Notes under the pieces: generated by a model
Databases searched by the model: none
What the model was told of the DNA's origin: nothing
What the model saw: only the letters and a program-made list of their open reading frames with translations
Shown here: positions 1,604 to 22,401 of the stretch, piece by piece
Layout: each line of letters starts with the position of its first letter
Numbering within the stretch: the stretch's first letter is position 1
Made by a program: the position numbers and the translations under genes
Virus record (IMG/VR): IMGVR_UViG_3300008116_000367
Span: 1 to 22,401 of that record
Source: a virus
Reading direction: 5' to 3' (one strand)
DNA: 22,401 nt

Positions 1604-2624
1604 ATGACAACCAAACAACGCCAACAATCCATGCTCATGCACGTGCTGCACACCGCACTGTCAATGAAGCGGCCACACAACACCGAGTCGGTTATCAACT
1701 TCACGCTGTGGTTGATGGACACACTACCTGAGCATGTGCGTGACAACCCCGCGCTTGTGTTCTGCGATGAGGTCAACAACCTGCACGTTGACATGCGCAC
1801 GGAAACTACACACAAGTCCTTATTCGTTGCACACGTTGACACTGTGCACCGCACCGAGGGCAAGAACAAGATACGCAAAACCAAAACCGTTCGACCGAGC
1901 TATTGCCTTTGACCGACGGGGTATCGACAGCGTTATCACGCATCAGGCATATGGTCGCTGCTGCTCCAACGAGTTCGGCACTGCACTTGCTGACGCATTG
2001 ATGGAGGGGTGCGAGCACTTGATGATGTTGACCGACGACACCGGCATATACACTGACACCGCTGAGTTCGTTGACATCATCCCCGAGTGCACCAACATCT
2101 CGGTCGGCTACGACCACGAGCACAGCCAGCAAGAGTCTCTTTCTCTTGTTCACTATCAACAACTCTCTTCTGCCGTTCTTGTTATTGACTGGGATGCCTT
2201 GCCTGTCAAGCGTGACCCTACGCAGCCAGACCCAACCGATCGGTGGGGAATGTACAACTGGCGTGGCACCAGCCAGAGTTCGTACAGCGCGTTTGACTCT
2301 GCGTGGTGGGATGATGACTACACCTACGACAAGCATGGCTACACCGTGTACCCGACACATTCCGCAACCGGCAGCTACGAGCGCTGGCGCGAGGATATTT
2401 ACAGCGACCTGCTAGACTTTAAGTACGGCTACACGCAACCATTACTAAAACGTATTGCCGACTTGGCATACCCAGACGACCCTGATCTGGCTATGCGGCA
2501 TATGAACCACAAGATGCTTGACGAGAAAGACATCGACGACTTCATCGCTGTGATTGACGACATGGACGAGACAGAAGCGGAGTTCTGCATGCTCGACCTG
2601 TTCGACATGATGCACGTTGCTTAA
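1604..2624 (+). pseudogene. Zn metallopeptidase (M20/M28/M42-like), gutted and frameshifted
   Basis: Two pieces of one peptidase lie in different frames. The first (1604 to about 1888) starts at ATG and contains HVDT at residues 77-80, the first metal-binding segment of co-catalytic zinc peptidases. The second (about 1890-2624, next frame) opens with FDRAIAFDRRG, then has TDTAEF and EHSQQE, which match the dimer and C-terminal metal-ligand part of M28/M42-type enzymes. The middle segment, which in the family carries the bridging Asp and the catalytic Glu-Glu, is absent. The join falls next to a tandem AAAACC (1877-1882, 1883-1888). Read as it stands, the first frame stops at 1912 after 102 residues. 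I infer an internal deletion whose length is not a multiple of three; assembly error or an unusual recoding event are the alternatives. The intact form would be a cytoplasmic peptidase. The last codons precede the second hairpin. Confidence 0.75.
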
Positions 2625-6089: not shown

Positions 6090-6404
6090 ATGGCTGACAC
6101 CCCGGAAGCCAAAGTTAAGAAACAAGTGAGGAAATTACTCGATGATTTACCGGCTTATTATTTCTTTCCTGCTACCCATGGTTATGGGCGCAGTGGGGTT
6201 CCTGACATTATTTTTTGTTACAAGGGAGTATTTGGCGCGATTGAGTGCAAGGCAGGTAAAGGACAGCTTACTGCACTTCAGGAACGAGAAATAAAGTGGA
6301 TTGAAGACCACGCGGGGTTTACGTTTGTAGCACGTGAAACAAACCTTGAAGAACTAAAGGAGAAGCTGATATGGATGACAAAGAAGATTTCATCCGGAGA
6401 ATGA
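6090..6404 (+). CDS. VRR-NUC domain nuclease
   Basis: A 104-residue single-domain protein of the VRR-NUC branch of the PD-(D/E)XK nuclease superfamily, related to Holliday-junction resolvases and to the nuclease domain of FAN1. The core is visible: Gly-Val-Pro-Asp (Asp39), then Ile-Glu-Cys-Lys (Glu52, Lys54) and the conserved Gln59 in Gly-Lys-Gly-Gln-Leu, followed by the helix Gln-Glu-Arg-Glu. Stand-alone phage VRR-NUC proteins of this size are common and are thought to cut branched DNA in a metal-dependent way during replication or packaging. The length is normal and all core residues are present. The 3' end overlaps the next gene by 34 nt and carries its SD. Confidence 0.85.
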   Translation: MADTPEAKVKKQVRKLLDDLPAYYFFPATHGYGRSGVPDIIFCYKGVFGAIECKAGKGQLTALQEREIKWIEDHAGFTFVARETNLEELKEKLIWMTKKISSGE

Positions 6405-6646
6405 ACTCACTGGATGACGAGTCGCGGATGCACTTCAAAGACATCATAGAAACACTGGTGCGCTGCTATGGCCCGTACAAGGATGGTCGTGCGCTTGTGC
6501 TGTTTGTTGGTGACGACAGTCCGGCGGCCTGCGCCATGACGTTGAACTGTGACGACATGGAGGCGTATAACCTGATCCAAGACGTACATAACTACTTTCA
6601 TTTCTTAAACATAAAAGACGCACCAGCGAAGGAGAGATTCAATTGA
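6371..6646 (+). CDS. Small acidic hypothetical protein
   Basis: A 91-residue acidic protein of unknown function. The ATG follows AAGGAGAAGCTGAT (6357-6370), which lies inside the nuclease gene. The middle contains a hydrophobic strand-like segment, Arg-Ala-Leu-Val-Leu-Phe-Val-Gly, and a later helix, Met-Glu-Ala-Tyr-Asn-Leu-Ile, suggesting a small alpha/beta fold. The stop overlaps the TTG start of the next gene. Confidence 0.65.
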   Translation: MDDKEDFIRRMNSLDDESRMHFKDIIETLVRCYGPYKDGRALVLFVGDDSPAACAMTLNCDDMEAYNLIQDVHNYFHFLNIKDAPAKERFN

Positions 6647-7025: not shown

Positions 7026-7252
7026 CTGACCGTGAACCAGTAATCATTGAGAAAGCATGTTGGGAGCGCGGGTGCGCTTGTTACGACCATCGTGTTGACG
7101 AGGGAGTGAAGGTCACGTTGGCGCAGCGCGAATGGGTTGGGCTGACCCCAGAAGATAAACGTATGGCTGGCATCCCTTTGCACACAAACCAGATAAGTAT
7201 CTCGGATGCGTTTGATGTAATTGAGCGGATACTGAAGGAGAAGAACACTTGA
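7022..7252 (+). CDS. Small phage protein with EWVGLTPE motif (paralog)
   Basis: A 76-residue protein from the ATG at 7022 (ATGA overlap). An in-frame start at 6950 would run deep into the zinc-ribbon gene and is rejected. It has a Cys-rich N-terminal part, then Gln-Arg-Glu-Trp-Val-Gly-Leu-Thr-Pro-Glu-Asp and the ending Leu-Lys-Glu-Lys-Asn-Thr, both shared with the gene at 3113. The last codons encode the AAGGAGAAG SD of the DNA polymerase gene, and the stop overlaps its TTG start. Function unknown. Confidence 0.7.
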   Translation: MTDREPVIIEKACWERGCACYDHRVDEGVKVTLAQREWVGLTPEDKRMAGIPLHTNQISISDAFDVIERILKEKNT

Positions 7253-9204
7253 GCAAACCTTACAAACGCATACTGACCATCGACTTTGAAACACGGTGGG
7301 ACAGTAAAGACTACACGCTATCCAAACTAACTACCGAGGAGTACATACGCGATGATCGGTTCAAAGCTTTCGGCGCTTGCATACATGAGTTCGGCACAGA
7401 CAAAGCAACCCAGTGGTATCGACACGACGAGTTGCCTAGAATTCTTTCTCTCTACGATTGGTCTAGTACTGCCGTGCTCGCTCATAACGCTCAGTTTGAT
7501 GTGTCTATTTTGGAATGGGTTTACGATATTCATCCTGCCTTTATTTTTGATTCTCTCAGTATGGCCCGTGCTCTCAGGGGTGTGGAAGCTGGAAACTCAC
7601 TGGCAAAACTCGCAGAAGAGTTTGAACTACCGCCCAAAGGACGCGCCGTACACAATACAGATGGCATGGAAGAAATAAGCTGGGAGGTAGAGAAAGAACT
7701 GGCTGACTATTGCAGGCACGACGTGTTCCTGTGCGAAGAAGTATTCAAGCGACTGTACGCAGGCTACCCCAAGTCTGAGTTACGCTTGATCGACATGACG
7801 TTAAAGATGTACACCCGCCCCACGTTGCAGCTTGACAGCCGCATGCTGGAGAAAGCCATAGAAGAAGAAAGGGAAAGTCGTGAGAAGCTTTTGGAGAAGC
7901 TTAATGTTACAGATGCGGAGCTTGCTAGTAACCCTAAATTCGCGGAGCTTCTGGCTTCGCTGGGCTGTGAACCGCCTTATAAGAAGAGCAAGACGACGGG
8001 TAAGCAGACGCTGGCACTTGCAAAAAACGATGCCTTGTTCCAAGCATTACTCAATGGTGAGCGAGAAGACGTTCGACTCTTGTGTGAGGCACGACTGCGA
8101 GTCAAGTCTACAACTGAGCGCACACGAGCGCAGCGTTTCCTTGATATATCTGAACGAGGCGCGCTACCCGTCCCGCTCGCCTACTACGGTGCCAAGTCAG
8201 GACGATGGACAGCATCAAAAGGCAGTGCAATAAACATGCAAAACCTAAAGCGTGGCTCGTTCCTGCGCAACGCGATCATGGCTCCCGTAGGTAGTGTCGT
8301 GGTAGCTGGTGACTTGTCGCAGATCGAGCCTCGTGTGCTGGCTTGGATGGCTGACTACGATGATCTTTTGAACATCTTCAAGTCCGGCGAGGATGCGTAC
8401 GCCCAGTTCGGCTCCCAGATGTTTAACATCCCCGGCTTGACCAAAGAGAGCCACCCAGACCTGCGTCAGTCAGCCAAGTCGGCGTTGCTGGGCTGCGGTT
8501 ATGGGCTAGGCTGGGCGAGCTTCGCTGCGCAGCTTCTGGTGGGCTTTCTGGGGGCTCCTCCGGTGCGGTACGACGCAGCCTTTGCCAAGAAGCTGGGCGT
8601 GACTCGGGCATACATCGACAAGTTTCTGGAGTGGGAGGACAATGTTGTCAAACTGGAAGCCATACCCCACACCTGCACAACTAAGGAACTCTTGGTACAT
8701 GCAGTAGCATCTAAGAAGATCATCGATATTTATCGGGCAACGGCGTACCCGGTCAAGGCGTTCTGGGACATGTGCTCTGACCTTCTGGTCAGGAGTCTTG
8801 TTGGTGGCGAAGAGTTCCGGTATAAATGTGTGGTGTTCCGCAAGGGCGAGATCGCGCTGCCCAACGGTATGAAGCTGCTTTACCCTGACCTGCGGCAGGA
8901 CAAAGAAAAGAACTGGGTGTACGGCGAGGATGAAACCAAGCTTTACGCCGGTAAGATCACGAACAATATCATTCAGGCGCTGGCAAGAATTGTCATGACT
9001 GATGGCATGTTACGTGTAAACCAACGCTATCCAGTGGTGGGAACTGTTCACGATGAGTTGTGGGCTATCGCACCAGAGGAAGAAGCGCAAGAAGCAAAGC
9101 AGTGGGTGTGGGAACAGATGGTAATGGAACCCTCTTACATGCCGGGGATTCCGTTGAACTCAGACGTTGGGTATCACCAACGCTATGGCATGGCTAAAAA
9201 ATAA
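7249..9204 (+). CDS. polA: Family A DNA polymerase with 3'-5' exonuclease
   Basis: The phage replicative polymerase, 651 residues, starting at TTG behind AAGGAGAAGAACAC (7235-7248). The N-terminal 3'-5' exonuclease shows Asp12-Phe-Glu14-Thr, His-Asn-Ala-Gln-Phe-Asp84 and Tyr154-x-x-x-Asp158. There is no 5'-3' nuclease domain, as is usual in phages. The polymerase domain has motif A (Asp355-Leu-Ser-Gln-Ile-Glu360), the O helix (Arg406, Lys410, Tyr418) and motif C (Val-His-Asp-Glu near the C-terminus). All catalytic acidic residues are present. The residue equivalent to Phe762 of E. coli Pol I is Leu414; metagenomic and biochemical work links this variant to slower, more accurate synthesis and possibly to temperate phages. 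The symbol marks the family only. A metallopeptidase and a Cas4-like nuclease follow in the same unit. Confidence 0.95.
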   Translation: MSKPYKRILTIDFETRWDSKDYTLSKLTTEEYIRDDRFKAFGACIHEFGTDKATQWYRHDELPRILSLYDWSSTAVLAHNAQFDVSILEWVYDIHPAFIFDSLSMARALRGVEAGNSLAKLAEEFELPPKGRAVHNTDGMEEISWEVEKELADYCRHDVFLCEEVFKRLYAGYPKSELRLIDMTLKMYTRPTLQLDSRMLEKAIEEERESREKLLEKLNVTDAELASNPKFAELLASLGCEPPYKKSKTTGKQTLALAKNDALFQALLNGEREDVRLLCEARLRVKSTTERTRAQRFLDISERGALPVPLAYYGAKSGRWTASKGSAINMQNLKRGSFLRNAIMAPVGSVVVAGDLSQIEPRVLAWMADYDDLLNIFKSGEDAYAQFGSQMFNIPGLTKESHPDLRQSAKSALLGCGYGLGWASFAAQLLVGFLGAPPVRYDAAFAKKLGVTRAYIDKFLEWEDNVVKLEAIPHTCTTKELLVHAVASKKIIDIYRATAYPVKAFWDMCSDLLVRSLVGGEEFRYKCVVFRKGEIALPNGMKLLYPDLRQDKEKNWVYGEDETKLYAGKITNNIIQALARIVMTDGMLRVNQRYPVVGTVHDELWAIAPEEEAQEAKQWVWEQMVMEPSYMPGIPLNSDVGYHQRYGMAKK

Positions 9205-10227: not shown

Positions 10228-10482
10228 ATGTTTAATTGTGGCTGTGAAGTAGATTACATCAGCATTGATTTCAACAGTAAAGTAGGCACCGCGTATTTTT
10301 CAGAAATGCGCTACCCTGACATGGGGAAAACGATACGTGCTTTTCTTGCCATAGACGACGAAATAAAGGCAATCGACACGTACGTCGATGGCAAAGTTGA
10401 CACACGATACTTGTACATTCCTGCTGTAAACGAATGGCAAGCTTTCCCACCGTTCAAATCTGTTTTTGGAGAAGTGTCATGA
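10228..10482 (+). CDS. Small hypothetical protein
   Basis: An 84-residue protein of unknown function with AGGAG about 7 nt before ATG. The N-terminus has Cys-Gly-Cys at residues 4-6; the rest alternates hydrophobic and polar residues and appears beta-rich (Tyr-Ile-Ser-Ile-Asp-Phe, Thr-Arg-Tyr-Leu-Tyr-Ile-Pro). No known motif. The 3' end carries the SD of the following gene, and stop and start overlap (ATGA). Confidence 0.65.
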   Translation: MFNCGCEVDYISIDFNSKVGTAYFSEMRYPDMGKTIRAFLAIDDEIKAIDTYVDGKVDTRYLYIPAVNEWQAFPPFKSVFGEVS

Positions 10483-12492: not shown

Positions 12493-12897
12493 ATGTCAGA
12501 TGAAATGGTTCCGCTCGACAAGCTTGCGAAGATATATCGCAAGATCAAAGCGGAGATCGACGCGCTGACGCAAGAGTACGACACTAAGATCGAACAACTC
12601 AAAGCGCAACAAGACGAACTCCGCTTTGCAATGAAAGACCAGATGAAGGCGCTTGGCGTCAAGTCTGTTAACACCGCCTTCGGTACCGTGACTATGGTGC
12701 ACAAGACACGCTATAGCACAGACGATTGGGACTCGTTCAAGAAGTTCATCATCGAGAACGACGTCGTTGATCTTCTGGAAAAGCGTATTGCGCAAGCCAA
12801 CATGGCGCGGTTCCTTGAAGAAAATCCCGGCAGTGTACCGCCCGGATTAAACGCGTTCTCGGACTTCGAAATCCGAGTTACTAAACCTTCCAAATAA
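12493..12897 (+). CDS. Coiled-coil phage protein of replication module
   Basis: A 134-residue protein. The ATG at 12493 has the recurrent SD immediately before it. Residues about 8-55 form a charged coiled coil (Lys-Leu-Ala-Lys-Ile-Tyr-Arg-Lys-Ile-Lys, Glu-Gln-Leu-Lys-Ala-Gln-Gln-Asp-Glu). Then comes a small domain with Ser-Val-Asn-Thr-Ala-Phe-Gly-Thr-Val, Asp-Trp-Asp-Ser-Phe and Pro-Pro-Gly-Leu-Asn, a pattern I recognise from phage proteins next to SSB and recombination genes. Some relatives are annotated loosely as Gp157-like or Gam-like; I do not assign either. The position between SNF2 helicase and candidate SSB suggests an accessory DNA-metabolism role. Confidence 0.7.
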   Translation: MSDEMVPLDKLAKIYRKIKAEIDALTQEYDTKIEQLKAQQDELRFAMKDQMKALGVKSVNTAFGTVTMVHKTRYSTDDWDSFKKFIIENDVVDLLEKRIAQANMARFLEENPGSVPPGLNAFSDFEIRVTKPSK

Positions 12898-12907
12898 GAG
12901 CCCCTAT

Positions 12908-13867
12908 ATGTCAAATGTGACCCTATTTAACCCTTCGCAAGTCCCTGCATTCGCACGCAACAACGAGTTGTCCGACACTGCCAAAGCACTGACCGGCAGC
13001 ATGACGGGCGGCATCAAGCGCATCTCCATCAAGGGCGGTGTATTCCGTCTGGTAGCTTCCGGCAAAGAACTGGCGGCTATTGATGAGCGTTACTTGGATG
13101 TCATCGTCGTCAAGGCAGCGCCCAAAGTCAGCCGTATCTTCTACGCAAGCAGCTACGATTCTGACAACCCCGCACCGCCTGATTGCTGGTCAAACGATGG
13201 CGAGCGCCCAGACCCAACTGCACAAAACAAGCAAGCGCCTTCTTGTGTGAACTGCCCGCAGAACCAAGCCGGTTCTGGCAACGGTAACAGTCGTGCTTGC
13301 CGGTATCAGCAGCGTCTGGCCGTGGTGCTGGCGAATGCTCCCGATGGTGATGTGTTGCAACTGACGTTGCCTGCTACGTCGATCTTCGGCAAGGAAGATG
13401 GCGACAAGCGTCCGCTGCAAGCTTACGCACGGTTCTTGGCGTTGCAGAACCCGCCGATCAACCCGGAGCAGATCGTCACCCGTATGCGCTTCGACACCAA
13501 GTCCGAGTCACCCAAGCTTTTCTTCCAGCCCATGCGCTGGTTGACGGAGGACGAGTACAACATCGTGTCGCAGCAGACGGACTCTGACGATGCCAAGCGC
13601 GCAGTCATCATGACTGTAGCGCAAGCGGACGGTGTATCCAAAAGCCCCGCGCTCGCCTTACCGGGCAAGCCACCCGCTGTTCAAGATGAGGGGGACGAAG
13701 AAACGGAAGAAGCACCAGCACCCAAACCCAAAGCTGCGAAGAAGAAAGCGGCGGTGATGGACGAGGATGCAGAGCCCGAAGTTCGCAAAGAAGAAGCCAA
13801 GCCTTCGGCAGTTCCTGCCAAGAAGTCCAAGCTGGCTGACATCGTGGACGACTGGGACGACGAGTAA
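12908..13867 (+). CDS. Candidate ssDNA-binding protein with Cys cluster and acidic tail
   Basis: A 319-residue protein. Residues about 35-235 form the folded part; it contains Cys93, Cys113, Cys116 and Cys131 in a Cys-x19-Cys-x2-Cys-x14-Cys arrangement that could bind zinc. A long linker (about 250-305) is rich in Ala, Pro, Lys and Glu, and the chain ends Ile-Val-Asp-Asp-Trp-Asp-Asp-Glu. A flexible linker plus an acidic, aromatic-containing tip is the hallmark of ssDNA-binding proteins that recruit partners, as in bacterial SSB and T7 gp2.5. I do not see a diagnostic OB-fold motif, so SSB function is inferred from the tail, the neighbours and similarity in layout to phage proteins placed in replication modules. 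The SD is weak. Confidence 0.6.
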   Translation: MSNVTLFNPSQVPAFARNNELSDTAKALTGSMTGGIKRISIKGGVFRLVASGKELAAIDERYLDVIVVKAAPKVSRIFYASSYDSDNPAPPDCWSNDGERPDPTAQNKQAPSCVNCPQNQAGSGNGNSRACRYQQRLAVVLANAPDGDVLQLTLPATSIFGKEDGDKRPLQAYARFLALQNPPINPEQIVTRMRFDTKSESPKLFFQPMRWLTEDEYNIVSQQTDSDDAKRAVIMTVAQADGVSKSPALALPGKPPAVQDEGDEETEEAPAPKPKAAKKKAAVMDEDAEPEVRKEEAKPSAVPAKKSKLADIVDDWDDE

Positions 13868-14785: not shown

Positions 14786-17677
14786 ATGACCCCGCTTGAG
14801 TTTCTTGCGGTTGTTTTGCCGTCTCCAGAAAACGGGCTGTACTGTGCCTGTGAGATGACGGACAAAAAGGAGCACATCTTTGTTGAAGATATTGCCGACT
14901 TCTACCCGAAGGTTGACTCGTGGGTTGAAAACAAATGCAATGTCTACTTTGCGCTGGCTACTTTTGACGAGAAGGTAGCCAAGATAAAGGGCAACAAAGA
15001 CAGACGTACCATTCCCAACTCGCGGTTTATCAAGTCGTTGTTTCTGGACTTGGACGGCTACGAGACAAAGAAGGCTGCTGCACAGGCGCTAAACGATTTC
15101 ATGGCAAAGACCGGGCTTGACCTGCTTGGTACACCGTATATCGTTTCGTCTGGCGGCGGTCTGCATTGCTATTGGCCTTTCACAGAAACCATCGATGTCA
15201 ATGTCTGGCGTCCTGTGGCCGAGAATTTCAAACGCCTGTGCAAGCAGGAAGCACTGCGCATCGACAACACGGTGACGGCTGACTCGGCAAGGATTTTGCG
15301 CATACCCGAGACATTCAACTTCAAAGCCAAATACGACACGCCGCGTCAGGTGCGCATACTGGCTGAGGGCGACACGTTTGATTTTGAAATACTGGCCGAG
15401 CACATCCGCTCCCAGTTAACGGCGTTGCCAGCAGCCGTGCCCAACAACGTCATCGAGCTACCCGGCGTACGTCCAACAGCGCCTACGGCTACAGCGGTCA
15501 AGTTGTTTGAGAACAGCGTGACTAAGTTCAGGACGATTATCGAGAAGACCCGTGCAGGGACGGGCTGTGGGCAACTCGCATACTACCTTGAGAACGCGCA
15601 GGAAGACGGCATGGAGCCGATCTGGCGCGGGATGTTGTCGATCGCACAGAAGTGTGAAGAGGCCGACAAGGCAGTGATCTGGCTGTCAGAAAAGCATCCG
15701 TACGATGTCGATCGGATGAACACCAAGCTGCGGGAGATTAAAGGACCCTATCCCTGCACGAAGTTCGATAGCGAAAACCCCGGCATCTGCACAAGCTGCC
15801 AGCACTGGGGCAAGATCACAAACCCGCTGGCACTGGGCAGGGAGACGGCTGTCGAGGTTCAGGCACGGGAGATCGATGTCCAGATCGATCAGGAAGTCAA
15901 ACGCATCCTGCGTCCGGAAGCGCCCAAGGGGTTTGCCTACGGAGCCAACGGCGGCACGTTCATGGAGCGCGACGATGAGGATGCTGACGGCAACAAGATC
16001 AAGCGCCAGATCATGCTCTTGCCATACGACCTGTTTCCGGTGGACATCCTGAACCAGAACGGCGAACACACGGTACACATGCTGGCCAACCGCAAGGAGG
16101 GGGCGCAGACCATCACGTTCCCGCAGAAGTGTGCCGTTAGTAAGGAAGAAACACTGAAGCATCTGGCCACGCAAAACGTCATCGCAGCGTTCGGGGCAGG
16201 CAACGACAAGAACCTGTTCGACTATGTGCGGGCATGCACCGAGAAGCTATCGACGGAGAAAAGCCCGATCAAGGTACCGGCCAACTACGGCTGGCAGGAT
16301 GATGGCTCGTTTGTGTACGCAGGGCGTATCTACTTCAAAGGCGGCAGCGTGCAGGTGCCTATGCCGGGGCTGGAGAACATTGTCATGAACACGCAACCTA
16401 CGGGCGACATCAATGCGTGGCGGCAGTTTGTGAACTTGCTTATCAAGAAGAAAATGTGGGATCACCTGACCATCCTGATGATGGGGATGGCGGCTCCCCT
16501 GATGCGCTTCACCGGCATCTACGGGCTTACCGTACACCTCGGCTCCACGGAGTCAGGCACGGGTAAAACGCTGGCACTGGAGGGTGCTGCGTCAGTCTGG
16601 GGGCATCCTGTGCACTACCGCACAGGCAAGGGCACATCCCCGGTGGCGATGCAGCAACGGCTAGGCTTGCTAAATAGCTGCCCCCTGATCACGGACGAGA
16701 TCACCGCCAAGAACCGCAAGGACTTTGAGTGGTTCCCCGAGTACCTGCTGGACAAAACCGAAGGCCGTGGCAAGGAGCGTATGGAGTCGGGAGCCAACCG
16801 GGAACGACTTAACTTGTCAACTTGGCAAACACTTTCCTTCATGTCGTCCAACACGCACGCAGTGGACTACCTGACCGGGGGAAGAAAGCACGCCTCCGAG
16901 GGCGAACTGCGCCGCCTGTTAGAGTTCATCATGGATCAAGAACTGTCATGGGAGCCACATGAGATTGAGATCATTAAGTCGCTATCGTCCAATTACGGAG
17001 TCGCTGGTGAAATGCTTGTCCGGTTTATGGTTGACCACGCGGAAATGCTGGCGCAGCTTGTTCCGCAGGTAGTTACGCAGATGTACAAGGAGTTCGGCGC
17101 AACCAACGACGAGCGTTTCTGGATGGCGGGTATTGGCGTAACAGCCGCCTGCTGCGTTGTCGCGTCGGACAAGCATGCTGGCATCGTCAACGTCCCGGTC
17201 GAGCCGATCATGGATGCGCTAAAGAAAGTGGTGAAGTTCATGCGCGCCAGCATAAAGGCCGGAAGCCGCACAGCCGAGGATGTGCTGAACTCGTTTACGC
17301 GGGAGTACTACGGCAACTTCATCATCGTCAAGTTCACAACCAACGAAGGGATACTGGCTGAGTTGGGGCACGGCGGGGTCATTGACGCATCGACTACACG
17401 CTCTCAGATTATGGGGCGCATCGAGCACGGCGTGACACCGGGGTTTGTGGACTACTACATTGAAGAGCGGCTGTTAAAAGCGTTCTGCTCATCCATGAGC
17501 TTTGGCTACTCGGACTTCAAGCGCAAGCTGGAGGAACTATTTGCGGTCACGTATATGCCGAAGAAAGACATGATGGCCAGAACCAAAGGTCCCCAGATGC
17601 GTGTGCCTGTGCTGAAGATCACCCGCCGCATAGATGAAGAAGAAATTACAAATCAAGTATCCTTGGCAGCAGCTTGA
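14786..17677 (+). CDS. Bifunctional AEP primase and AAA+/DUF927-like helicase
   Basis: A 963-residue replication protein. The N-terminal archaeo-eukaryotic primase fold shows Leu-Asp-Leu-Asp (87-90), Ser-Gly-Gly-Gly-Leu-His-Cys-Tyr-Trp (122-130) and Ser-Ala-Arg-Ile-Leu-Arg-Ile-Pro-x-Thr-Phe-Asn-Phe-Lys (about 167-180), the Asp-x-Asp, His and basic motifs of phage AEP primases. Cys324, Cys335, Cys338 and His340 may bind zinc. The C-terminal ATPase has Walker A Gly-Ser-Thr-Glu-Ser-Gly-Thr-Gly-Lys-Thr (586-595), Walker B Leu-Ile-Thr-Asp-Glu (634-638) and a sensor-like Met-Ser-Ser-Asn (686-689), resembling DUF927-type helicases. It would make primers and unwind DNA at the phage fork. SD is AAAGGATC. 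It is the last large rightward gene, and the next small ORF overlaps its end. Confidence 0.88.
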   Translation: MTPLEFLAVVLPSPENGLYCACEMTDKKEHIFVEDIADFYPKVDSWVENKCNVYFALATFDEKVAKIKGNKDRRTIPNSRFIKSLFLDLDGYETKKAAAQALNDFMAKTGLDLLGTPYIVSSGGGLHCYWPFTETIDVNVWRPVAENFKRLCKQEALRIDNTVTADSARILRIPETFNFKAKYDTPRQVRILAEGDTFDFEILAEHIRSQLTALPAAVPNNVIELPGVRPTAPTATAVKLFENSVTKFRTIIEKTRAGTGCGQLAYYLENAQEDGMEPIWRGMLSIAQKCEEADKAVIWLSEKHPYDVDRMNTKLREIKGPYPCTKFDSENPGICTSCQHWGKITNPLALGRETAVEVQAREIDVQIDQEVKRILRPEAPKGFAYGANGGTFMERDDEDADGNKIKRQIMLLPYDLFPVDILNQNGEHTVHMLANRKEGAQTITFPQKCAVSKEETLKHLATQNVIAAFGAGNDKNLFDYVRACTEKLSTEKSPIKVPANYGWQDDGSFVYAGRIYFKGGSVQVPMPGLENIVMNTQPTGDINAWRQFVNLLIKKKMWDHLTILMMGMAAPLMRFTGIYGLTVHLGSTESGTGKTLALEGAASVWGHPVHYRTGKGTSPVAMQQRLGLLNSCPLITDEITAKNRKDFEWFPEYLLDKTEGRGKERMESGANRERLNLSTWQTLSFMSSNTHAVDYLTGGRKHASEGELRRLLEFIMDQELSWEPHEIEIIKSLSSNYGVAGEMLVRFMVDHAEMLAQLVPQVVTQMYKEFGATNDERFWMAGIGVTAACCVVASDKHAGIVNVPVEPIMDALKKVVKFMRASIKAGSRTAEDVLNSFTREYYGNFIIVKFTTNEGILAELGHGGVIDASTTRSQIMGRIEHGVTPGFVDYYIEERLLKAFCSSMSFGYSDFKRKLEELFAVTYMPKKDMMARTKGPQMRVPVLKITRRIDEEEITNQVSLAAA

Positions 17678-17825
17678 GAAAGGTCAGGGGTTCTTCGTGC
17701 CTTGTTTAGACCCGGAGGCCGTCATACAAGACGGCCTCCGTAAGGCAATTGGCGCACGCAAACTACACGCTAAAGCCAGAGTAGGGGTCAAGGACGGTAA
17801 GCTCGGAGTGTGGTTTCATCTGTAG
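17634..17825 (+). CDS. Small phage protein (YPWxxLExGQGFFVP type)
   Basis: A 63-residue basic protein overlapping the primase end by 44 nt in another frame. The stretch Lys-Tyr-Pro-Trp-Gln-Gln-Leu-Glu-Lys-Gly-Gln-Gly-Phe-Phe-Val-Pro-Cys-Leu and the later Lys-Ala-Arg-Val-Gly-Val-x-x-Gly-x-x-Gly-Val-Trp-Phe match a small protein pattern I recognise from phages of Proteobacteria, with no known role. No good SD is seen. The gene contains a perfect 11-bp inverted repeat (17713-17740), and its last 38 nt overlap the 3' end of the leftward giant gene. Confidence 0.65.
   Translation: MKKKLQIKYPWQQLEKGQGFFVPCLDPEAVIQDGLRKAIGARKLHAKARVGVKDGKLGVWFHL
17713..17740. repeat. Perfect 11-bp inverted repeat at convergent junction
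   Basis: CGGAGGCCGTC (17713-17723) pairs with GACGGCCTCCG (17730-17740) around a 6-nt loop. It lies within the small ORF at 17634, 36 nt after the primase stop and about 48 nt beyond the stop of the leftward gene. Neither side carries a T run, so it is not a classical terminator, yet it is placed where transcripts from both directions would need to end. Confidence 0.6.
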
Positions 17826-20800
17826 CTCGCAGGAAGTTCTCAGCCAGCTTGTTTTGCGCAGTGTCGATCCGCTTCAAAATCTCGTCCTTCTGCTCCGCAG
17901 ACAAGCGTGGGGCAATCTCTACCTGCCGTCTGGCTTTGGCAAGCTCGCCCAACTTCTGCTGCACTGAGCCCGACACCGATGCTGCTGCGATGCGGTTGAT
18001 GTACTCTTCCATGAACTCCTTGGCATCTTCTTTCCTGCCTTGCTGGAGCATGCGCTCGTAGGTGCCCTTGGCTTGCTGAACCTCTAGCATGCGGGCGTAG
18101 GCTGCGTCTAACGTACCGCGTCCTTCTACTGGCTGGAACAAGCCGCCGATGAAAGGCATTTTGCTGACCTTGGTGGACGGCTTCTCGTACGGTGCCTCGG
18201 CGTTCAACAGCGGATTGGCAAGCGACACCAACGCAATACCCAGACCGCCTGTGTACCCCCGGATTAAATAGTCCAGCTTGATCGGGCTCAAACCTGCATC
18301 GCCAGTAATGGAGCCAAGCATCTTGGATAGCTCTGTGGTGCTTTCTCTGGCACGCTCACTGGGGGTCATGGTGTGAAGTTCGCGCTGGGACTCGATGTCG
18401 CCACCAAAGAACGACTTGCCCAGATAGACTTCCGTCGCAGGCTTAATCGCTTGCGGTAGGCTAAACGGGTTGGACAGCATAACCAGCTTGGTCATGCCCT
18501 TGGTCACATCCTTGTTGCGCTCGTCGTCAGCCGCTAGGTTGTAAACCGCCTCCGGCAAAGACTTGAACAGGTAGCCCAATTCAAACGGCACGGGGATGCG
18601 CAGCGGCTCGTCAGCAAACGGCGTGGGCAAGAACCAGTTACCCAGACGCTCTTCCGGCTTGGCTTTCTTGTACGCTTCGTCATCTTCCATCATCATGGCG
18701 TAAGCCAGCGTACCAACGGCCATCAGCGTGCCACGTGCCAGTAATTTCTTTCTGATCTCAAGCTGTTGGTCATACGGCATCTTGCCTTTAAAAGCACGGT
18801 ACAGAACATCCAGACCTTGAATCTGTGCGTTAAAGAAGGGGATCAATACCGACAGCATCTGCATGCTGGGCGAGACGCCCCGGCGGCTAAAGTTCATGGA
18901 CTCCAGCGTGCGCAGATACGCCTGCATCTCGGACATGCCTTTGTTTAGCGAGTCCCTGTACAGCACCGCACGAGTAGCTGCGTCGCCTTGCAAAGCAAAG
19001 GCATCCGCCCGAGCCATGATCTTTTGCCAGCCGGTCTTGCCCATAGAGATTTCTTTTAAGAACTTCTCCATGTCGCCTTTATCGCCGGTGAAGACGTTGC
19101 TCGATATTGCGCCTGCCTCCATCAGCTTCTTCTCGGCTTCGCTGCGTCCGGCCACCATACTAGCTAACTCTTTCATGGAGTTCAGCACGGGCACACCGTC
19201 AACCCCTGTAGTCATCCATGCAGTCATTGGGTCGCGGATTGCCTGCTTGATCGCATAGGCCGGGTTACGCGTTACGAACTTGCGCAAAATGTCTGCTGGC
19301 ATACCCAACATGCGCACTGCTGCCGGTATTGTTGTCTTGATACCTTCCATGCCCTTGACGATCAGCGATGCAGGGATGCCGTACAAGTCTGTGTCGATGA
19401 CGACAAAGTGATCTTCGCCCTTGTGTTTGAAGCGTACGGTGTTCGGTCCTGCGGGGCCAGTACCTTTACCTATCGTGCTGGCAATACCCATCTTGTTCAG
19501 AATAAACGCGGACTCCTTAACGGCCTGATTGCGCAGTGCCATTTCGGTCAACAGGAACGTGTTCTGAACAGAGCTTGTAAAGATTGGCAAAATCTCTGTG
19601 CTGTCACCAACCAGTTCTTTAAGCTGCGGCTCGTCCTTGATATTTCCAATCCGCACCGGGTGTTCGCTGTCAATCATCAGCTCAATTTCGCCCGTACCTT
19701 TATTGATACGGTAGAACGGCACGTACGTTATCTTCTTAAGTTCTGCTACCTTGTCTTTCGACATGGTGCCAGTCTGAACAAGTAAATCCAACATGCCGTG
19801 GTTGTACTGTTGGTACAAGTCCATAGCCTTATCAAACATCGCCTTGTCTTCAGGGCGGCTATCAAGCAGCTTCTTGATTTGGTTGTACTCAGCCGCTGCT
19901 TTGCTGGGGTTAGCAAAATTCAGTTTGTTCCAGCCTACTTGCTTGGCGCGTTCTCCTGCCACCAGCGCGGTCAGAATGGCTTCTTTCTCCGTGTCGTTAC
20001 CGATCTTGGACTTGGCAATAGCGTCGGCCACCTGCATCATGTTGACGCCCGGAGTGCTCTTGTAGACGTACTCGGTGCCGCGCTTGGTTTCTTCTTTCAC
20101 CAAACGCACAGGACCATTAGTCAAGAACTGACCGGCAAACTGACTGCGCTGTTCACCAAAACGTAGGTAGTACTCGGCCTGTTCGCCTTCCAGCGCCTTG
20201 ATCTTCTCTGCGTCCATGCCTTTCTTAAAGGCTTCAGACAACGCAGCGTAGCGGTCAACAAACTGCACACGGCCTGTTAGCCCAAGGAAGTTGGCTTTTA
20301 AGCGATCAACTTGGGTTGGGTTCTTGGCAACAAACGACGGCGCAATTGACGACTCTTGCCGCGCAGACTTAAACGAAAAAATACCGGGCTTGTCTTCTTG
20401 TACGCCAACGTCTTTGGGCGCATAGCGCGGGCGCTCTTCCACCACAGTGAACTCGGCGTTCAGTATGCGGTTTGGCGCATTCAAGGTGCCAAGTCTTTCC
20501 GTTATGTGCGCGTAACTTTCTGGCGCAATAGCGTCAATTATTTTGTTTAGTTTACGATTTGTAGCAAGCAGCGCTTCTTCAGTACGCAGTGTATCGTACT
20601 GGCTTTGCAAAAAGTCGTGTATAACGTCGTCGATAGCGGGTTTTTCATCAGGAGCAAGGTATTCTTCAGCATATTCCTTGTTGTAATAATTTTGCACCGC
20701 GCGTGTGCCAAACTGGTCGTTTATGGCCCGAATAAAATGTTGTATTTTTTGCGTGGCTATCGGATCTTTACGCATAGTGCCTTGCCCGTCAGGCAGTGCG

Positions 20801-22401
20801 ATAGCGTCACGATCTTTAAAATCAACGTGAAGTACGTCCGTGTCAATTTTTGCATCGCGCAGCGCTGATCTAATTGCGCTTAGTATGCGGTTGGGAGCGC
20901 GGGCTTTAAACTCTTCAAACGGATCGTTTGTGCTTCCGATGTCTTCCGAATCGGGCAGGATAACGTCTAACGCGGCGGTTTCATTTGTAAGATCAATCCG
21001 ACCAACACGTACTTTTCCGTTAACAGTTATCTGTTGATTTGTTTCGCTACGACCAGAACTGTATGCGCGAATCTCATCGATATACGTGTTATTGCCTGCG
21101 TTAAGTACTGTGTTTTCTGTGCCGTATGTCAGCAAGGTGCCAACTTTCAACAGTTTAGTAGCATCAATGTTCGTGTCACTAAACATTGCCAGTCGCTTAA
21201 CTGTGCGCAGTTCTGGCAAGTTGATGCTGGTGCGGCTGTACGCGGTTACGTCGTTTGCGGCCTTAAGCGTTTCCCATGTGGTAGTAAAGTCTTTTCCACC
21301 AATTGACGTTTTAAGTTCGTCAGTAGGTTTGACGTCGCTTCTAAGGTCCAAGTAGTCCATGAACCAGTAGCCGTTGTCATATGCTTTATACAACTGCTGC
21401 GTAATTTTTTTAGTTGCCGCTTGCACTACGCTCTCGGGTATATCGCGGCTACCGTATCCAAAAGTATTTCTAAACTTAAGCTGCCGCTTGACGCCTTTTT
21501 CGTCTACATTGCGCTCGGAGTTCACCACGTTGCCAAAATTAGAAAAATCTTCTGGCGTAAGTTCTTGGTCAGAGAACATCTTGATTAGCGTTTCTTTACG
21601 GTCCATTTCTTCTACAAATGCACGACCGTCTTTAAAGCCTTTATCTAATATAAAAGCTTTGGCTAGTTGCTGATGTTTTTTGCTTAACGCTTGGTTAGGT
21701 AAGTTGCCGCGTATTTCTCCGATCTTACTTGTACCATCCATACGAACTGCAACTTCAGGCTTGCCGTTTTCGTAGTAGATGTAGAAGTCGCCATTTTTTA
21801 TTTGGGACTCGGCAGTTGAGACTGAACCGCCAGTACACCACGGCGTGTTTGCCGCGCCTGCGTTAAGCGCAACAGCGTCTTCGTATTTGTTAGACTGTGC
21901 AAACTTTTGCCAACCATCTTTGCGTCTGTTGGCGCTGGCATTTGCGTCAGCATTTGTTTGCAGTCCCCCAAGAAACGCGTCTTTCAACGACTTGCCTTTA
22001 CGCAGCTCTTCAATAACAGCGTTGGCAGACTCGCGGCCAACAACGGCCACGGGGTGCTTGTTGTTATCAGACAGGTTGACAATCTTTAATCTACCATCAC
22101 GGCCAGATATAACGCCATACTTAGACGCAGCTTTAGCCACCAGTGCTTGCTCTGCTAACGTATAAGAAGGGTTTGCGGTCAAATAAATTGCTAGTTCAAG
22201 CAAAGCATTGTTGCGTGCTTTATTTACGGCACGGGCTTCTTCGTTGGCGATGTGTGGACTTTTCATCGCATCGTATGCGGCCAGTGTGCCTACGTCTGCT
22301 TCAACAAAGTGCAACGGGTTTTCTGGGTCGTACACGTTGCCGTCAGACATCGTAGCGGCAGTCTTGTAATCTAGCTTGCTTGAGTCTACTTGAGCAACAA
22401 A
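17788..22401 (-). CDS. Giant polyvalent/internal virion protein, LPD38-like C-terminus (partial)
   Basis: The frame is open to the right edge, with 17 more codons before the Met at 22350, so the N-terminus lies outside the window; at least 1,537 residues are seen (numbering from that Met). Residues about 160-220 hold Thr-Pro-Trp-Cys-Thr-Gly-Gly followed by Gly-Asp-Phe-Tyr-Ile-Tyr-Tyr and Val-Ala-Val-Arg-Met, a Trp-Cys-Thr domain seen in phage polyproteins. Residues about 370-450 have Leu-rich, LRR-like repeats. From about 700 on, and clearly near 1000-1300 (Asn-Pro-Ala-Tyr-Ala-Ile-Lys-Gln-Ala-Ile-Arg-Asp-Pro), it resembles the large polyvalent protein domain LPD38. The C-terminus is charged and helical. 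Such proteins are packaged or injected with phage DNA. Virion location is inferred. It is the only leftward gene. The 5' half looks more AT-rich than the 3' half. Confidence 0.8.
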   Translation of the reverse strand, partial: FVAQVDSSKLDYKTAATMSDGNVYDPENPLHFVEADVGTLAAYDAMKSPHIANEEARAVNKARNNALLELAIYLTANPSYTLAEQALVAKAASKYGVISGRDGRLKIVNLSDNNKHPVAVVGRESANAVIEELRKGKSLKDAFLGGLQTNADANASANRRKDGWQKFAQSNKYEDAVALNAGAANTPWCTGGSVSTAESQIKNGDFYIYYENGKPEVAVRMDGTSKIGEIRGNLPNQALSKKHQQLAKAFILDKGFKDGRAFVEEMDRKETLIKMFSDQELTPEDFSNFGNVVNSERNVDEKGVKRQLKFRNTFGYGSRDIPESVVQAATKKITQQLYKAYDNGYWFMDYLDLRSDVKPTDELKTSIGGKDFTTTWETLKAANDVTAYSRTSINLPELRTVKRLAMFSDTNIDATKLLKVGTLLTYGTENTVLNAGNNTYIDEIRAYSSGRSETNQQITVNGKVRVGRIDLTNETAALDVILPDSEDIGSTNDPFEEFKARAPNRILSAIRSALRDAKIDTDVLHVDFKDRDAIALPDGQGTMRKDPIATQKIQHFIRAINDQFGTRAVQNYYNKEYAEEYLAPDEKPAIDDVIHDFLQSQYDTLRTEEALLATNRKLNKIIDAIAPESYAHITERLGTLNAPNRILNAEFTVVEERPRYAPKDVGVQEDKPGIFSFKSARQESSIAPSFVAKNPTQVDRLKANFLGLTGRVQFVDRYAALSEAFKKGMDAEKIKALEGEQAEYYLRFGEQRSQFAGQFLTNGPVRLVKEETKRGTEYVYKSTPGVNMMQVADAIAKSKIGNDTEKEAILTALVAGERAKQVGWNKLNFANPSKAAAEYNQIKKLLDSRPEDKAMFDKAMDLYQQYNHGMLDLLVQTGTMSKDKVAELKKITYVPFYRINKGTGEIELMIDSEHPVRIGNIKDEPQLKELVGDSTEILPIFTSSVQNTFLLTEMALRNQAVKESAFILNKMGIASTIGKGTGPAGPNTVRFKHKGEDHFVVIDTDLYGIPASLIVKGMEGIKTTIPAAVRMLGMPADILRKFVTRNPAYAIKQAIRDPMTAWMTTGVDGVPVLNSMKELASMVAGRSEAEKKLMEAGAISSNVFTGDKGDMEKFLKEISMGKTGWQKIMARADAFALQGDAATRAVLYRDSLNKGMSEMQAYLRTLESMNFSRRGVSPSMQMLSVLIPFFNAQIQGLDVLYRAFKGKMPYDQQLEIRKKLLARGTLMAVGTLAYAMMMEDDEAYKKAKPEERLGNWFLPTPFADEPLRIPVPFELGYLFKSLPEAVYNLAADDERNKDVTKGMTKLVMLSNPFSLPQAIKPATEVYLGKSFFGGDIESQRELHTMTPSERARESTTELSKMLGSITGDAGLSPIKLDYLIRGYTGGLGIALVSLANPLLNAEAPYEKPSTKVSKMPFIGGLFQPVEGRGTLDAAYARMLEVQQAKGTYERMLQQGRKEDAKEFMEEYINRIAAASVSGSVQQKLGELAKARRQVEIAPRLSAEQKDEILKRIDTAQNKLAENFLRATDETTLRAYRP

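Follow-up and report, generated by a model that had tools for sequence, protein, structure and literature searches.

A catalytic-centre gap in a phage zinc peptidase gene, very probably introduced during assembly

Does the phage behind IMG/VR virus record IMGVR_UViG_3300008116_000367 encode a zinc peptidase without its catalytic centre, or has the record lost a piece of an ordinary gene? In this 22,401-base record, analysed over its whole length and here called the window, the translations of the open reading frames reveal one peptidase gene at positions 1604-2624, present as two halves in different frames. A preliminary description of this DNA had recognised here a single zinc peptidase which lacks its catalytic middle and changes frame at the join, and our profile comparisons bear this out.

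The 5' part of this M28/M20-like gene (plus strand, 1604-1888, codons 1-95) carries the first zinc-ligand motif, HVDT, and is identical to L001:1353-1637 in the sister contig G001. Seven out-of-frame residues after ...HVDTVHRTEGKNKIRKTKT close the open reading frame that contains it (1604-1912, 102 aa). After position 1888 the second half (FDRAIAFDRRG...YTDTAEF...DHEHSQQE...) continues in another frame to 2624; this 3' part (plus strand, 1889-2624), which includes a C-terminal extension, is identical to L001:1811-2546 except for one base, at 2274. Against the profile of the phage family PHROG 4191, the N-terminal half matches positions 3-75 (E 1.2e-5) and the C-terminal half positions 149-261 (E 5e-39). 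As the halves match only these two stretches, the middle of the profile, approximately positions 76-148 (about 73), is missing from the window copy.

The flanking HVDT and TDTAEF/EHSQQE segments are intact, as the preliminary description had stated, and lie in open frames. HVDT, an instance of the first-ligand motif HxDT, is found in the window and in the sister, and the downstream Asp/His ligand motifs YTDT and DHEHS are also present in the window. Absent from the window are the bridging Asp motif GADD(G/K)AG and the GEE motif with the catalytic Glu and a zinc-ligand Glu, while the sister and all relatives have both. The protein translated from the window as written would be inactive, because the Asp of ADDGAG and the glutamates of GEE are missing.

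The relatives of the window were found by an IMG/VR search. One of them is the sister contig G001 (IMGVR_UViG_3300008117_000106), which matches window positions 252-22401 (22,150 bp) with a single mismatch, apart from an additional 173 bases at 1888|1889. Alignment of the window to the sister therefore defines the missing part as exactly 173 bp, that is, 57 codons plus 2 bases. The join falls within the predicted interval of 1885-1890, so the location of the gap was anticipated correctly, while its expected size of 60-80 codons was a slight overestimate. In the sister the peptidase is one unbroken 397-aa open reading frame, starting at L001:1353, in which the 173 bases account for residues 96-152 and a portion of residue 153. 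Both missing motifs lie inside this segment, as ...GDVLGADDGAGVAM... (ADDGAG) and ...QGEEKGGIG... (GEE). The sole mismatch in 22 kb, at window position 2274, is also inside the peptidase gene: the window has C, giving a Gln codon, and the sister has A, giving Lys, which is also the residue in L002.

In its intact form the gene is an unremarkable representative of a phage peptidase family that is already known. The sister protein matches PHROG 4191 in a single stretch from position 3 to 261 (E 4.5e-69) and shares its motifs with phage peptidases from podoviruses of Klebsiella, Pectobacterium and Vibrio and from Rhizobium phage Pasto. Where these relatives from phage records match, their identity does not exceed about 50%, and the C-terminal extension of the sister protein, approximately 125 aa, shows little similarity to them. 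Beyond the phage family, the intact sister scores 24.0 against Pfam M28 (PF04389), above the gathering score of 21.3, and 29.9 bits against the M20B peptidase T-like model TIGR01883 (PDB 3rza, 3gb0), far below its cut-off of 274 bits. In a profile of 11 members, HxDT, GADDxAG and GEE align with those of the tripeptidase 3rza (E 1.5e-6). The alignment of these 11 members shows that H77, D79, D107, D108, E133, E134, D209 and H231 are invariant, and likewise T80; H77, D79 and T80 belong to HxDT, D107 and D108 to the bridging Asp motif, E133 and E134 to GEE, and D209 and H231 to the downstream ligand motifs. We assign them as zinc ligands and catalytic Glu on the basis of what is established for the M20/M28 families. 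Compared with M28/M20 enzymes, the window copy is without the Asp that bridges the metals and without both glutamates. The close relatives have no solved structure, and an AlphaFold model of the intact sister from the 11-row alignment reached a mean pLDDT of 42.7.

Intact copies, which the preliminary description had proposed looking for, occur in the sister and in every relative that we examined. In each of the 17 further contigs covering the region (L002-L018), DDGAG and GEE are encoded in the frame of the flanking sequence, and L002 (G002), approximately 80% identical, keeps the segment at the same place. A scan of genome contigs gave one weak match only. None of the relatives has the short form, and the 1888|1889 junction of the window was found in no other IMG/VR viral contig, in a scan that may leave out the window's own record.

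These comparisons bear directly on whether the split could be a working arrangement, with the two halves produced separately or through frameshifting, or with the missing segment provided in trans. Both flanking motifs are intact and in open frames, as such an arrangement would need. However, a search of the rest of the window for the 173-bp segment did not find it, which also disposes of a translocation within the window and leaves no sign that the segment is supplied otherwise, as had been suggested. Furthermore, a frameshifted fusion would lack the ADDGAG Asp and the GEE glutamates that are invariant in the family, the short form is shared with no relative, and the 50 codons upstream in the second open reading frame are the first half read out of frame. 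We regard a functional split as extremely improbable and nearly excluded.

The junction itself speaks to the mechanism proposed in the preliminary description, namely deletion between short direct repeats at a tandem AAAACC. This tandem (plus strand, 1877-1888), which encodes Lys-Thr-Lys-Thr in frame, does lie at the join. However, it is unchanged in the intact sister, and is thus not a scar of the event; L002 has the tandem too, reading AAAACCAAAACCA at this place. The other breakpoint has no AAAACC, the microhomology of the window junction is 0, and the longest word common to the two breakpoints within 15 bp is 4 bases. With no bases shared between the breakpoints and the tandem retained in the undeleted gene, a repeat-mediated deletion is unsupported.

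A real hole would lead one to expect few others like it in near-identical contigs, except in dispensable genes. On this premise we surveyed all near-identical pairs among the contigs retrieved and identified 11 distinct N-free drop-outs of 49-173 bp in the group, one in the window and 10 (49-152 bp) in other contigs. Besides the 173-bp event at window 1888|1889, they comprise losses of 152 bp in L043 (window 6332-6483), 122 bp in L044 (window 7167-7288), 129 bp in L043 (window 10318-10446) and 113 bp in L045 (window 12896-13008), all four of which are present in the window, and six in G004 relative to G005 (65, 108, 119, 49, 112 and 85 bp). Mismatches beside the 129-bp event leave its 30-base junction word without an exact match, but its gap is plain in the alignment. 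The events in G004 were given their direction from the reading frames and, in the case of the 65-bp event, also from the third contig L003.

No deleted form occurs in more than one contig, and in each case one to three other contigs carry the complete sequence. The lengths show no bias towards multiples of 3, which account for 2 of the 11, a share that chance would give (probability of 2 or fewer, 0.23). Microhomology over the events is 0-4, mostly 0, a near-random distribution (mean for random junctions 0.69). The genes affected include some that a phage would hardly spare: the L044 drop-out removes the 5' end of a DNA polymerase gene, the L045 drop-out the 5' end of a gene for a 319-aa protein near the helicase, and the 119-bp drop-out of G004 part of an SNF2-type helicase. 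It is unlikely that a viable phage would lose these. In near-identical pairs from other metagenomes we found 0 events in 52.9 kb of pairwise alignment, compared with 20 in 139.7 kb in this group, a count that includes redundancy and, as the pairs overlap, is not an independent rate. The holes in this group, which are clean, N-free, 49-173 bp long, each confined to a single contig, independent of frame and spread over several near-identical contigs, resemble false deletions from short-read metagenome assembly.

One of the G004 drop-outs also lies in the peptidase gene. In L018/G004 (3300008107; locus L036, position 9008) the gene lacks 65 bp near its 3' end and has a frameshifted C-terminus, while G005 and L003 carry the 65 bp.

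The main alternative is a real, recent and private deletion in part of the phage population, in which illegitimate recombination cut out 173 bp and so abolished an accessory peptidase. In its favour, a junction as clean as this must be carried by some molecule or read; the peptidase is plausibly dispensable, its PHROGs category being 'other' and not a core phage function; and the G004 lineage is a second one that is broken in this gene. On the other hand, G004 has five more clean drop-outs besides that break, similar holes occur elsewhere in the group, replication genes included, the breakpoints in the window share no microhomology and have no nearby repeat of more than 4 bp, and the gene is intact in all other relatives, whose catalytic residues do not vary. 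We therefore consider a real deletion unlikely. Quite improbable, too, is its extension, in which the deletion is real and forms, together with the 65-bp break in G004, a repeated loss of an accessory peptidase in closely related freshwater phage populations.

We conclude that, very probably, the missing 173 bp are an artefact of assembly, or of read joining, in this record and the phage population has the intact 397-aa gene. This is the best explanation because a near-identical sister has the full gene and because contigs of the group show similar clean, private holes, including in replication genes. Assembly, or an earlier joining of read pairs, would have skipped the 173 bp and abutted both sides without Ns. 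False joining of non-overlapping read pairs, or gap closure without Ns, would give such a pattern, and a processing step of this kind presumably lies behind the hole; we infer that the window and the contigs with drop-outs stem from one group of assemblies. The end of contig G003 at window position 1865, 23 bp short of the join, hints at a place that is hard to assemble.

Several observations weigh against an artefact. G001 is the only contig of the exact strain with the 173 bp, so that window and sister stand one against one. The 22 kb of the window contain no second drop-out, and its lone single-base difference from the sister lies in the same gene. Moreover, a de Bruijn assembler alone makes no homology-free junction; a chimeric or falsely joined read, scaffolding or a real molecule is needed. 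Taken as a whole, the preliminary interpretation is partly supported: among the options it listed, loss of bases in assembly is the one best supported by the intact near-identical sister and the private drop-outs of the group.

The peptidase gene follows a gene for a 506-aa protein (plus strand, 80-1600) which matches gp004 of Rhizobium phage Pasto in BLASTP (E 6e-13, 23% identity). In Pasto (MT708545.1) the order is the same, gp004 followed by the zinc peptidase gp005, and the two genes may form a conserved unit. The 506-aa protein has CxxC pairs (CCPDC, CESC). Further along the window, positions 14786-17677 encode a probable primase-helicase of 963 aa that contains a DUF927 domain, and positions 17788-22350 on the minus strand, convergent with the replication genes, encode a protein of 1520 aa in which Pfam recognises an LPD38 domain (E 3.8e-32) and which may be a large component associated with the virion.

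For the reading of genes from this group of contigs our results call for caution, since clean, N-free losses of approximately 50-170 bp mimic pseudogenes and catalytically dead enzymes. Comparison with near-identical contigs resolves most cases of that kind.
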